Below the pieces are notes generated by a model. It did no database searches. It was not told the origin of the DNA and was given only the letters and a program-made list of their open reading frames with translations. Source: an uncultured Bacteroidales bacterium (lineage in GTDB: Bacteria > Bacteroidota > Bacteroidia > Bacteroidales > Bacteroidaceae). From it: DNA of 64,000 bases. The stretch's first letter is position 1. Each line of letters starts with the position of its first letter. The DNA is taken from positions 1-64,000 of the forward strand of contig CACZCZ010000013.1 of the NCBI GenBank assembly GCA_902779845.1, in the 5' to 3' direction. Positions 19,215-43,897 of this stretch are shown one piece after another. The position numbers were made by a program, and so were the translations under genes.

Positions 19215-21743
19215 TTAAAACAGCTGTCCTATTTGCACGACGGCTACGGAGACGAGCCACGCGAGGCAGGTGGTGTAGAGGGCGGCACAGAGCGCCCAGC
19301 CCCACGATGAGGTCTCGTTCTTGATGGCTACGATGGTGGCCAGACAGGGGAAGTAGAGGAGGATGAAGAGCAGGTAGGCGAAGGCCGTGAGCGGAGTCAC
19401 GCCGTCGGCGCTCATACGCTGGCGCAGGAGTGTGTATTTGTCCTTGTCCTCGCTGAAGGTGTCGTCGTCGCCGAAGCTGTCGTCGCCCGAGTAGAGCACG
19501 CCCATCGTGCTGGCTACTATCTCCTTGGCACCTACACCGGCGATGAGACTCACGTCCAGCTTCCAATTGAAATGCTGCGGCGCGAAGATGGGTTCAATGG
19601 CTTTTCCGGCACGACCGAGGTACGAGGTCTCCATGGAGACCCCTCTGCTCCCTTCCCCGACCCCTTCCCTGTTAGGGAGGGGTGAATTGCTGGCAACAGA
19701 AGTATTCTCGCCACCCTCCCTGACAGGGGAGGGGGTGGGGCCGAAGTAACTCAACGCCCACACGATGATGCTGGCAACGAGGATGATGCCGCCCATCTTC
19801 TTCAGGTACTCCTTGCCCTTCTCCCACGTGTGGCGCCCGATGGCTTTGGCGGTCGGCCAACGGTAGGGCGGAAGCTCCATCACGAAGGGCGTATCCTCAC
19901 CCTTGATGATGAAGCTCGAGAAAATACGTGACACCACCACGGCTACCAGAATGCCGATGGCGTAAAGCGACACCAGCACCGTACTGCGCCACTGGGGTGC
20001 AAAGAACGTCCCCACGATCATTATATATATAGGTAGGCGCGCGGAGCACGACATGAAAGGCAGGATCATCATCGTGATCAGTCGCGAGCGGCGGCTCTCA
20101 ATGGTGCGGGTGGCCATCACGGCGGGGACATTACAGCCGAAGCCCATCACCAGCGGGATGAACGACTTGCCGTGCAAGCCCATGCGGTGCATCAGCTTGT
20201 CCATGATGAAGGCGGCACGCGACATATAGCCCGAGTCCTCCATGAAGGAGATGAAGAAGTAGAGTATCAGGATCTGCGGCAGGAACACGATGACGCTTCC
20301 CACACCGCCGATGACACCGTCCACGAGCATCGACCGCAGGGGGCCCTCGCTCATCGTGGAGCCTATCCATTCGCCCAGCCATGCCACGCCGGCCTCTATC
20401 CAGTCCATGGGGTACTGGCCGAGCGCGAAGGTCGTCTGGAACATCACGTAGAGAATCAGGAAGAAGATGGGGAAGCCCAGGAAACGGTTCGACAGCAGGT
20501 TGTCGATGCGGTGTGTGGTGTGGTAGGTGTCCGCCTTCGTGCCAGTCTTGAACTCAGCTTCGGTGAGCGCACCGTGGATGAAGCCGTATTTGGCATCCAT
20601 GATGGCTGTCTCGGAATCTACGCCCGTCTCCTCCAGCACACGTGCTGCGGCATAGTCGCGTGCAGCCATCAGGCGCTTGCGGTCTTCGCTGCGGTGTTCG
20701 CTCTCCACGTGACTCTCCACGTAGTGGATCATCTCCGCGTCGTGCTCCAGCAACTTCAGCGCCATATAGCGCGTGGAGTACTGTGTGCTCAGGTGCTCAT
20801 CGGCCTTCAGGAACTCTTGGATATGCGTGATGCCGTCTTCAATCTCGTGGCCATAGTTGATGTGGATGTGTCGCGACTGCGTGTTCACGCCCTCATAGAC
20901 CTCAATGACAGTGTGGAAGAGTTCTTTTACGCCGCGTCCGCTCTTGAACGATGTCGGCACCATGGGGACGCCGAACAGCGTGGAGAGCGTGTCGAGGTTC
21001 ACGTAGTCGCCGCGTAGCTCGAACTCATCGAACATATTCAGGGCGCACACTACACGCAGGTTCATATCTACCAGCTGCGTGGTCAGGTACAGGTTGCGTT
21101 CAATATTCGAGGCATCAATGACGTTGATGACTACGTCGGGGTGTTCCTCCTGCAGATGCTGTCTCACAAAGAGTTCCTCGGGCGAGTAGCAGGACAACGA
21201 GTAGGTGCCGGGCAAGTCCGTGAGGTCGAAGGTGTAGCCCTCCTGTTCTGCCGTCGCCGTCGTCGCATCCACCGTGACCCCCGAGTAGTTACCCACGTGG
21301 GCATGAGCACCGCTGGCATAGTTGAACAACGAGGTCTTGCCGCAGTTGGGGTTGCCGATAAGAGCCACGGAGATGGCAGATCCACCCCCCTGCCCCTCCC
21401 TGTTAGGGAGGGGAGTAGTATCATCTGAGCAGGCGTCCGCCGAGGTCGTTGCAGGAGTAACCGACTTACCCCCATTGTCTTGAAGGTAATTACTCCCCTC
21501 CCTAATAGGGAGGGGCAGGGGGGAGAGTCTTACCTCTATCAACTTCGCCTCTTCATGACGTAGGCTCACCTCGTAGCCCATCAGCTTGTATTTTACAGGG
21601 TCTTGGAGCGGCGCGTTGAGGAGCGCCTCCACGGGTTGCCCCTTGATGAAGCCCATCTCGATGATGCGTTTGCGGAATCCTCCGTGGCCGCTCACCTTCA
21701 CGATGTAAGCTCGTTCACCGGTCTTGAGTTCAGAGAGTTTCAT
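19215..21743 (-). CDS. feoB: Fused FeoA-FeoB ferrous iron transporter
   Basis: An 842-residue protein for GTP-driven Fe(II) uptake across the inner membrane. Residues 1-73 are a FeoA SH3-like domain (GHGGFRKRIIEMGFIKG). The FeoB G domain starts near 124 with GNPNCGKTSLF (G1), DLPGTYS (G3) and NMFD (G4). Membrane gates follow from about residue 430 (FLGFPIFFLILYVMF; VIVFLPQILILYFF; VMGFGCNVPA). The FeoA-FeoB linker (residues 73-121) is built from an inverted pair of palindromic repeats encoding SPLPLPIREGS and TPLPNREGQGGG. A second pair (about 667-698) encodes TPSPVREGG and SPLPNREGVGEGS in a loop between membrane spans. A canonical promoter lies upstream. Confidence 0.95.
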   Translation of the reverse strand: MKLSELKTGERAYIVKVSGHGGFRKRIIEMGFIKGQPVEALLNAPLQDPVKYKLMGYEVSLRHEEAKLIEVRLSPLPLPIREGSNYLQDNGGKSVTPATTSADACSDDTTPLPNREGQGGGSAISVALIGNPNCGKTSLFNYASGAHAHVGNYSGVTVDATTATAEQEGYTFDLTDLPGTYSLSCYSPEELFVRQHLQEEHPDVVINVIDASNIERNLYLTTQLVDMNLRVVCALNMFDEFELRGDYVNLDTLSTLFGVPMVPTSFKSGRGVKELFHTVIEVYEGVNTQSRHIHINYGHEIEDGITHIQEFLKADEHLSTQYSTRYMALKLLEHDAEMIHYVESHVESEHRSEDRKRLMAARDYAAARVLEETGVDSETAIMDAKYGFIHGALTEAEFKTGTKADTYHTTHRIDNLLSNRFLGFPIFFLILYVMFQTTFALGQYPMDWIEAGVAWLGEWIGSTMSEGPLRSMLVDGVIGGVGSVIVFLPQILILYFFISFMEDSGYMSRAAFIMDKLMHRMGLHGKSFIPLVMGFGCNVPAVMATRTIESRRSRLITMMILPFMSCSARLPIYIMIVGTFFAPQWRSTVLVSLYAIGILVAVVVSRIFSSFIIKGEDTPFVMELPPYRWPTAKAIGRHTWEKGKEYLKKMGGIILVASIIVWALSYFGPTPSPVREGGENTSVASNSPLPNREGVGEGSRGVSMETSYLGRAGKAIEPIFAPQHFNWKLDVSLIAGVGAKEIVASTMGVLYSGDDSFGDDDTFSEDKDKYTLLRQRMSADGVTPLTAFAYLLFILLYFPCLATIVAIKNETSSWGWALCAALYTTCLAWLVSVAVVQIGQLF
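19649..19687. repeat. Palindromic repeat arm inside feoB, C-terminal region
   Basis: CCCTTCCCTGTTAGGGAGGG-type core, in frame, encoding SPLPNREGVGEGS on the minus strand. It is paired with an inverted arm at 19709-19742, with a 21-base spacer. Confidence 0.7.
19709..19742. repeat. Second palindromic repeat arm inside feoB, C-terminal region
   Basis: ACCCTCCCTGACAGGGGAGG-type core encoding TPSPVREGG on the minus strand. It is the inverted partner of 19649-19687. Confidence 0.7.
21381..21420. repeat. Palindromic repeat arm in the FeoA-FeoB linker
   Basis: CCCCTCCCTGTTAGGGAGGG core preceded by CCCCCCTG, encoding TPLPNREGQGGGS on the minus strand. Its inverted partner is at 21485-21530. Confidence 0.75.
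21485..21530. repeat. Palindromic repeat arm in the FeoA-FeoB linker, full-length form
   Basis: Full arm: GTAATTACTCCCC, then CTCCCTAATAGGGAGGGG, then CAGGGGGGAGAGTCT. On the minus strand it encodes RLSPLPLPIREGSNYL. Outer end AGACTC and inner end GTAATTAC match the arms at ostA and trpS. Confidence 0.75.
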
Positions 21744-21765
21744 GCGTTGTCTTCATTTTTGTTCG

Positions 21766-21797
21766 CAAAAATACGTACATTTACTCAAACGACCAAA
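21766..21797 (-). promoter_or_regulatory. Canonical Bacteroidetes promoter for feoAB
   Basis: On the minus strand, TTTG (21794-21797) is followed after exactly 20 nt by TATTTTTG (21766-21773), 22 bp before the ATG. This fits the TTTG-N19-21-TAnnTTTG consensus. I see no clear Fur-like box. Confidence 0.75.
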
Positions 21798-42666: not shown

Positions 42667-42702
42667 GACTCTCCCCCCGCCCTCCCTATCAGGGAGGGAG
42701 TA
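42667..42702. repeat. Left arm of a perfect 36-bp inverted repeat around the trpS start
   Basis: GACTCTCCCCCCGCCC, then TCCCTATCAGGGAGGGAGTA. Its exact reverse complement is at 42781-42816; the inner end continues ATTAC. Confidence 0.9.
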
Positions 42703-42745
42703 ATTACAAATGATAGTCAGTCTATAATACAAATAATAAATATAT

Positions 42746-43897
42746 ATGAATATGTTAGAAAACAATCAGTCAAATCATCCTACTCCCTCCCTGATAGGGA
42801 GGGCGGGGGGAGAGTCTATCATCCTCACCGGCGACCGCCCCACAGGTCCCCTTCACATCGGACACTATGTAGGCTCTCTGCGTCGCCGCGTCGAGCTGCA
42901 GAACTCGGGCCTCTACGATAAGATCTTCATCTTCGAGGCCGACGCCCAGGCCCTCACCGACAATATCGACAACCCCGAGAAGGTGCGCCAGAACGTCATC
43001 GAGGTCGCCCTCGACTACCTCGCCGTGGGCCTCGACCCCGCCAAGAGCACCCTCTTCATCCAGAGCCAGATTCCCGAACTCTGCGAGCTCACCTTCTACT
43101 TCATGGACCTCGTCAGCGTCAGCCGTCTGCAGCGCAACCCCACGGTGAAGACCGAGATCCAGATGCGCGGCTTCTCCGGCGAGAGCATCCCCGTAGGCTT
43201 CTTCACCTATCCCATCTCCCAGGCCGCCGACATCACCCTCTTCAAGGCTACCACGGTGCCTGTGGGTGAGGACCAGGAGCCCATGCTGGAGCAGTGCCGC
43301 GAGATTGTGCGCCGCTTCAACAACATCTACGGCGAGACCCTCGTGGAACCCAACATCCTGTTGCCCGAGAACGCCGCCTGTCTGCGTCTGCCCGGCACCG
43401 ACGGCAAGGCCAAGATGAGCAAGTCCCTCGGCAACTGCATCTACCTCAAGGACAGCGCCGACGAGGTGCAGAAGAAGGTCAAGAGTATGTTCACCGACCC
43501 CAACCACCTGCAGGTCAGCGACCCGGGTCAGGTCGAGGGCAACACCGTCTTCACCTATCTCGACGCCTTCTGCCGCCCCGAGCATTTCGGACGCTACCTG
43601 CCCGAGTACGAGAACCTCGACGCCCTCAAGGACCATTACCGTCACGGCGGCCTCGGCGACATGAAATGCAAGAAGTTCCTCGCTGCCGTGCTGCAGGAGA
43701 CGCTGGAGCCCATCCGCCAGCGCCGTGCCGAGCTGGAGAAGGACATCCCCGCCGTCATCGACATCCTGCGCAAGGGCACCGAGGTGGCCCGCGAGGCCGG
43801 CGCCCAGACCATGTCCGAGGTGCGCCGTGCCATGCGTCTCGACTACTTCGACGACGCCACCTTCACGGCCGAGCAGGCTGCGCGCTTCCAGGCCTGA
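42746..43897 (+). CDS. trpS: Tryptophanyl-tRNA synthetase
   Basis: Charges tRNA-Trp. The 383-residue product carries the class I signatures [11 protein letters not shown] (HIGH motif, about 34-44) and KMSKSLG (about 225). Catalytic-core length is normal. The N-terminus is odd: residues 12-24 ([13 protein letters not shown]) are a palindromic repeat translation placed between a short leader peptide and the conserved [10 protein letters not shown] strand, so the repeat forms part of a nearly invariant enzyme. The start codon lies in the 78-base spacer between two perfectly complementary 36-nt arms. Confidence 0.95.
42781..42816. repeat. Right, in-frame arm of the 36-bp inverted repeat in trpS
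   Basis: TACTCCCTCCCTGATAGGGA, then GGGCGGGGGGAGAGTC. It encodes [13 protein letters not shown] together with its flanks and is the exact reverse complement of 42667-42702. Confidence 0.9.

Follow-up and report, generated by a model that had tools for sequence, protein, structure and literature searches.

A REPIN-like family of paired palindromic repeats that probably entered the genes of rumen Bacteroidales many times

Rickettsia palindromic elements (RPEs) are palindromes of about 150 bp that lie in frame in unrelated genes and give their products a shared peptide (PMC10969869), and those of R. conorii carry a CGTC tag (PMC3733652). Intragenic REPs of the GTAG/CGTC kind sit in uvrA (twice), DNA polymerase I and tRNA synthetase genes, where dimers encode 20–30 residues; Bacteroidetes are listed with CGTC, not GTAG, repeats, and many N-terminal cases are doubted on the ground that a downstream start may be used (PMC3733652). 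REPINs consist of two inverted copies around a spacer of lower conservation and form one hairpin; they are extragenic, with 14 of 1,067 16-mers overlapping genes (PMC3116915). Here we describe a family of paired palindromic repeats in a window of 64,000 nucleotides from an uncultured Bacteroidales bacterium (contig CACZCZ010000013.1 of GCA_902779845.1). Like RPEs, its members lie in frame in unrelated genes and encode a shared peptide, but it belongs to another phylum and straddles start codons. It occupies the same kinds of host gene as the intragenic REPs, whose families lie for the most part between genes and are tagged with GTAG or CGTC (PMC3733652). It has the inverted-doublet hairpin architecture of REPINs, but is mainly coding, and no RAYT gene flanked by it was found. 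In our judgement this is probably a REPIN-like miniature palindromic family that was inserted repeatedly in rumen Bacteroidales and kept in genes by way of a nearly stop-free reading frame.

An earlier note on the window had proposed a palindromic repeat family, and the family proved genuine and genome-wide. With up to three mismatches, AGACTCTCCCCCCTG matches the window 14 times (1.76 expected; none of 100 shuffles reached 14) and CCCTCCCTATNAGGGAGGG gives 25 strand-matches at 13 places (0.04 expected), and a repeat finder returned long inverted pairs, such as one of 36 nt, 100% complementary, that flanks the trpS start. The window belongs to a genome (G000) of 2.92 Mb in 47 contigs, which is 86% complete. 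There, when up to two mismatches are allowed, the stem CCCTCCCTNNNAGGGAGGG occurs at 106 places, compared with 3 for a reversed-pattern control, and an oriented 34-mer at 41 places, compared with 0.

Against the 106 places in this genome, we read 85 arms, from the window and 32 further stretches, 81 of them at two mismatches or fewer; the gene statistics below cover these arms. Each is a hairpin of about 45 nt composed of a tail, AGACYCWCCCCCC(TG), a stem, CCCCTCCCTNNNAGGGAGGGG, with a 3-nt loop, and then an AGTA edge and an inner edge, which by eye recurs in two types (ATTACCTTTCAAGAAT and GAATGTTTTG). The arms are organized as inverted pairs: among 33 neighbouring arms no more than 300 nt apart, 30 face tails-out, three belong to one tandem array before ostA and none face tails-in; the 85 arms comprise 30 tails-out pairs and 25 other arms. 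Spacers between partners measure 50–207 nt (the longest contains Ns) and are mostly unlike one another; several short ones (50–55 nt) have CTGAGCGGGCATCCG-like stretches in common. Partner arms are 83% identical, compared with 72% when partners are shuffled (0 of 5,000 shuffles as high; one pair containing Ns was left out), and their loops are identical in 12 of 29 pairs (4.5 expected, p 0.0002). The arms that the earlier note placed in ppiC, ostA and trpS exist but form inverted pairs, one arm upstream and the other within the gene, and the start codon therefore sits between them. In two of these three cases a signal peptide, by our own reading rather than a predictor, lies between the arms as well. 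Other palindromic families with similar tails are present in the same stretches of this genome.

Most arms lie within genes (61 of 85, 72%), and codons 10–20 hold 15 of the 85, compared with 2.9% of random positions. Eleven of the 30 pairs have both arms in one gene, three have them in two genes, 13 have one arm in a gene and three have none; 14 pairs have one arm among the first 50 codons of a gene, with the partner outside it. Two settings recur. One is the pair inside a single gene (UvrA-type twice, Mfd, FeoAB, LeuA and others); the other is the pair that straddles a start codon, its downstream arm forming an N-terminal tag (TrpS, IspH, EtfA) or following a signal peptide (PpiC, OstA). By Pfam, ten genes in which an arm lies close to the start encode a glycosyltransferase, an AIR-synthase-related protein, a pseudouridine synthase, an OPT transporter, a GH3 enzyme, a sulfatase, a radical-SAM UPF0004/TRAM protein (RimO/MiaB type), LytB/IspH, EtfA and a DUF4296 protein. 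Ten with interior arms encode a GH2 enzyme, TRCF/Mfd, a UvrA-type protein (two pairs), LeuA, an M16 peptidase, a tetrapyrrole methylase/methyltransferase, an APH/RapZ_C protein, PolA, TsaD and one product without a match. Typical encoded peptides are S-x-K-H-S-T-P-L-P-x-R-E-G-Q-G-G-G-S and DSPPALPxREGAVT. Of the 85 arms, 82 can be read through in this REG frame in both orientations; the other frames lack a stop in 31 to 65 of them, so a shared REG frame is mostly what stop avoidance would produce. The earlier note had every host gene using the REG frame without a stop. That frame is common, but largely forced and not universal: at least three genes of this genome (L034, L041, L042) use another, which reads LLPSLxGRGRGVGLL before a hydrophobic segment.

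The doubt raised about N-terminal REPs, that a downstream start may be used, is excluded for several of the proteins studied here. TrpS, IspH, EtfA and Gmk-like and RimO-like proteins have no ATG, GTG or TTG from the arm up to the point where conservation begins (conserved starts were judged from alignments and translations), and so their tags are translated if the genes are expressed. An alternative start within the first ten codons is available in the AIRS-type, sulfatase, PpiC, IlvN-like and L029:6437 genes; the labels Gmk-like and IlvN-like are our own reading of the translations. A set of named database records gave 123 arms at 103 loci, after seven loci had been set aside (five from Sphingomonas and two contigs from a single Thermodesulfobacteriales assembly); the set is not independent of the genus sample, as some contigs are equal in length. 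Of its arms, 49 belong to the start class, 36 lie within a gene, 34 are not read on and four are undecided. Among the 49 start-class arms, 19 had no ATG, and in 24 of the 30 that had one it stood 10–14 codons before the stem.

Comparison with orthologues, all within the genus, showed that the peptides are in-frame insertions at tolerant sites (in FeoAB, TrpS, OstA, PpiC, EtfA, IspH and TsaD), as the earlier note had proposed, since many congeners lack the peptide at the same site and some carry another arm type there. The arms that it had placed in FeoAB (twice), PpiC, the OstA-like protein and TrpS were borne out, these names being supported by Pfam. On the minus strand, a whole pair lies in frame in the FeoA–FeoB linker at 21378..21530 (LSPLPLPIREGSNY...TTPLPNREGQGGGS; stems at 21394 and 21496). 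Its spacer peptide is common to four genomes (G000, G107, G129 and G133), of which G129 and G133 differ in the arm peptides. A decayed pair lies in frame in FeoB at 19655..19740, also on the minus strand (GPTPSPVREGGENTSVASNSPLPNREGVGEGSRG, before METSYLGRAG; stems at 19663 and 19714); the second FeoAB linker does not exceed 25 residues in 19 of 29 relatives, whereas ten have a longer one. In the FeoB of G078 (L171), the same FeoB linker is a hot spot occupied by another repeat type, NSSTCQLV repeats.

The remaining window arms are on the plus strand. At trpS, an upstream arm between mutL and trpS (42667..42709) and a downstream arm that forms the N-terminal tag of TrpS (42777..42817) enclose the start codon. 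The empty allele begins ATG-CAA-CAG-AAA-ATC-ATC; among the loci listed, two-arm units are found in G000, G107, G073 and G078, and in G129 with another arm type, and G138 retains the left arm and has the right one cut (four of 30 loci gave no match). The first ppiC arm lies immediately 3' of the stop codon of the preceding gene (35185..35223) and the second follows the signal peptide (MAA-VTTPLLDREGVGES; 35320..35363); among seven relatives the peptide is present in three (G107, G129, G073) and absent in four (G041, G040, G105, G048). At ostA, one arm precedes the start codon of the OstA-like gene (38230..38274) and its partner follows the signal peptide (SIASVSTPLPYREGQGGES; 38357..38401). Many relatives have an arm right after the OstA signal peptide; among those listed, some keep the upstream arm whole, some have a decayed one and some have none. 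Upstream of ostA, the repeat finder detected three tandem 37-bp copies (38121..38229); where the window has these direct copies of the arm (38121–38274), G107 has a single one. A looser copy reported in mutL is present, but in our reading it resembles other repeat types rather than the palindromic family: at 41850–42050, the MutL linker contains stretches reminiscent of other repeat families, TSPPTPLSEGRGGSLRRS and CCCTAACGGGTAGCGAAGG...CAACGGGTTGACTGAA, the latter also found in L045 near 3395. Elsewhere in the window, TAAAATATAAGATA and CCCTCAACCCTTAA units form tandem arrays flanking a small gene (40037–40690), and three near-identical 78-nt direct repeats lie at 48967, 51060 and 54074, two of them near a 300-nt duplication (48551, 50644).

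Elsewhere in the genus, different genomes carry different arm types at one site. The EtfA unit, found in eight of 30 loci, occupies the position of the native start, and the other 22 loci begin M-N-N-V-F-V or similarly. In G055, both EtfA arms are of the CCCCTCTCC/GAGTGGAGAGGGG type rather than the usual one, around a recognizable spacer, and in G138 the two arms are unlike each other. It is on these stem differences that we base the claim of arm replacement. Identities of the G055 arms and spacer (0.64, 0.69 and 0.70) were rejected as proof because GC-rich arms align by chance, so that replacement cannot be separated from general divergence. IspH carries a two-arm unit in six of 30 loci and a decayed arm in one more. 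A TsaD loop is short in 14 of 30 loci and longer in 16; several of the longer loops are plainly repeat-derived, of different types, and some are not recognizable. In an AlphaFold2 model of TsaD, residues 133–187 have a predicted local distance difference test score below 50, the model being weak elsewhere too (mean 61.8).

Across the genus, the stem with up to one mismatch occurs in 43 of 61 genomes, at 0 to 107 copies each, and at family level an exact match occurs in 52 of 301 genomes and nine of 30 genera. One exact arm pattern was found in at least 110 stretches of named records, which come mainly from rumen and related Prevotellaceae, Bacteroidaceae and Bacteroidales assemblies. They include the cultured strain Xylanibacter brevis ATCC 19188, whose arm we translate as M-E-E-L-S-T-P-L-P-H-R-E-G-Q-G-G-E-S. 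Viral contigs yielded one stretch with the repeat, and phages are thus not an evident carrier. Outside these groups, the pattern matches five contigs from Sphingomonas and two from a single Thermodesulfobacteriales assembly. In two Sphingomonas records (L213, L246), the stem is the same, the tails are CCCACCCC and the arms form tails-out pairs 74–85 nt apart, which may reflect either convergence or a much wider family.

We then compared the family with the defining features of its relatives. A CGTC tag stands at either foot of 0 of 85 arms, with CGTC or GACG within 12 nt in one; the 5'-foot GT[AG]G of REPs and REPINs was found in 0 of 85 in either orientation, and GT[AG]G stands on the 3' (inner) side of the stem in 36. 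As both tags are absent, a GTAG or CGTC REP was rejected. Like REPs and REPINs, the family is a high-copy short palindrome arranged as inverted doublets, but it is not mostly extragenic, and none of five Y1-like loci in its own genome is flanked by the same repeat. Because the tag, extragenic and flanked-RAYT tests failed, we assign it to neither RPEs nor REPINs; the parallel that the earlier note drew with both holds for the mode of working, not for membership. No target-site duplication, as in miniature inverted-repeat transposable elements, was seen by eye at the EtfA, IspH and TrpS junctions. An intrinsic terminator was rejected, there being no T-run after the stem by eye. Rfam gave no family above the gathering score in 19600–43000, the sub-threshold matches being mostly microRNA hairpins far below the cut-off. 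The kind of element is known already from RPEs and intragenic REPs. Among the top-ranked papers in searches of the open-access literature, we found none on this family, its coding bias, start-codon straddling or arm turnover; the earlier note, too, knew of no described family with this sequence in Bacteroidales, and the family seems to be new.

No RAYT gene was named in the scanned parts of the window, as reported before, but several RAYT-like genes lie elsewhere in the genome. L081:4221-5402 and L049:1825-3126 (contigs C2 and C7 of G000) encode RAYT-like Y1 proteins whose C-terminal domain is DprA-like, and genomes of the genus have several members each. Their nearest known system is the TnpAREP/RAYT proteins (PMC6006769; PDB 4er8). 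They have the HUH and Y-x3-NP motifs and the Y1 fold of TnpAREP, with Y-x3-NP missing in five of 31 frames; the one protein scanned against NCBIfam NF047646 scored 33.6 bits (equivalog cut-off, 80), and against sequences of solved structures matches were weak (best transposase, E 0.79). No publication on a TnpAREP–DprA protein stood out among the open-access papers listed, and the word DprA is absent from the available text of PMC6006769. Y1-like matches correlate with repeat number (Spearman 0.55, 61 genomes), and occur in all 14 genomes with at least 30 copies and in 22 of the other 47.

We propose that the unit comprises two arms of about 45 nt, tails outward, around a variable spacer, and that rumen Bacteroidales (genomes of the Prevotellaceae type) would have received it in many separate insertions. 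Its survival in genes could be explained by one frame in each orientation that has hardly any stops and gives a flexible, Pro-rich/Arg-Glu-Gly linker; selection would retain in-frame copies at tolerant places, namely the N terminus, after a signal peptide, an interdomain linker or a surface loop. Template switching from one inverted repeat to the other may be what keeps partner arms similar, movement may occur as single-stranded DNA, possibly through the RAYT-like Y1 proteins that carry the DprA-like domain, and the peptides probably have no function of their own. Several observations weigh against this reading. No movement of the element was observed; arms somewhat avoid genes (72%, compared with 88% of random positions); and gene positions come from a custom caller that chooses the longest frame. 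The correlation with Y1-like genes is not independent evidence, because the genomes are related, and five of 26 genomes with at least ten copies lack a Y1-like match (G005, G014, G020, G033, G058), while six of 18 without copies have one. The 4–9 kb loci of five own-genome Y1-like genes, taken from the matches listed, contain no arm; as the genome is 86% complete, a further such gene may exist. Hairpins are also rarer near 31 Y1-like genes (4 in 77 kb) than in control loci (94 in 619 kb), which were partly selected for carrying repeats. The RAYT-like proteins are therefore an unproven mobilizer: their presence tracks copy number, yet none was found flanked by the repeat.

The first alternative concerns how the start-straddling pairs arose. 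Their arms could be separate single-arm events flanking native DNA, with template switching producing the second arm from the first, and not a single unit that arrived with its own start codon. We give this a substantial chance, somewhat below even. The OstA signal peptide between the arms resembles, by eye, that of arm-less relatives (G043, G103), spacers are mostly dissimilar, and template switching is known to homogenize inverted-repeat arms (PMC8604942). On the other hand, the native start codons of EtfA and IspH are not found outside the pair, the native sequence between insertion points is by eye only about 15 nt (EtfA) and 5 nt (IspH), and inner edges differ, again by eye, within many pairs. 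It is also conceivable, if rather unlikely, that no dedicated transposition enzyme operates any longer and that recombination and replication slippage alone spread and exchange the elements. The tandem 37-bp copies, the unlike arms in place at EtfA (G055, G138) and the five arm-free Y1-like loci are as such a process would leave them, but copy number is very uneven within one genus (0 to 107) and associated with Y1-like genes.

A more elaborate form of the REPIN-like reading seems improbable to us: a population living mainly in coding sequence, whose units can bring their own start codon and N-terminal tag, whose arms are swapped in place between genomes, and which is moved and annealed by a new kind of transposase in which a Y1/TnpAREP domain is fused to a DprA-like domain that binds single strands. 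Retention of the pairs for an RNA function, as a long hairpin with the start codon in its loop that sets translation or messenger RNA stability, appears less probable still. As RNA, the trpS unit folds with a 37-bp outer helix and the start codon in the loop (−91.1 kcal/mol, z −13.2), many pairs straddle a start, and partner arms remain complementary; the FeoA–FeoB linker unit folded as DNA gives z −6.9. Against such a function, 11 of 30 pairs lie entirely within one gene, copies are patchy among relatives with many empty orthologues, and single arms have been lost (at trpS in G138; upstream of ostA in G137 and G065). Finally, the genomes are mostly metagenome assemblies and linkers vary naturally, which might suggest ordinary inherited low-complexity linkers or assembly or binning artefacts. 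We consider this very improbable: the DNA is palindromic and paired, empty orthologues are clean, and many assemblies share the family, as does the cultured Xylanibacter strain, which makes an assembly artefact, the outcome that would have undone the original proposal, unlikely.

Palindromic elements thus sit at scale inside core, probably essential proteins (TrpS, IspH, TsaD, PolA and UvrA-type) of common rumen bacteria, and are now seen outside the obligate intracellular lineages in which the idea arose. Predicted gene starts in these genomes may be wrong. More than 100 congeners offer empty, filled and differently armed alleles, so that movement, decay and homogenization of the repeats become directly testable.

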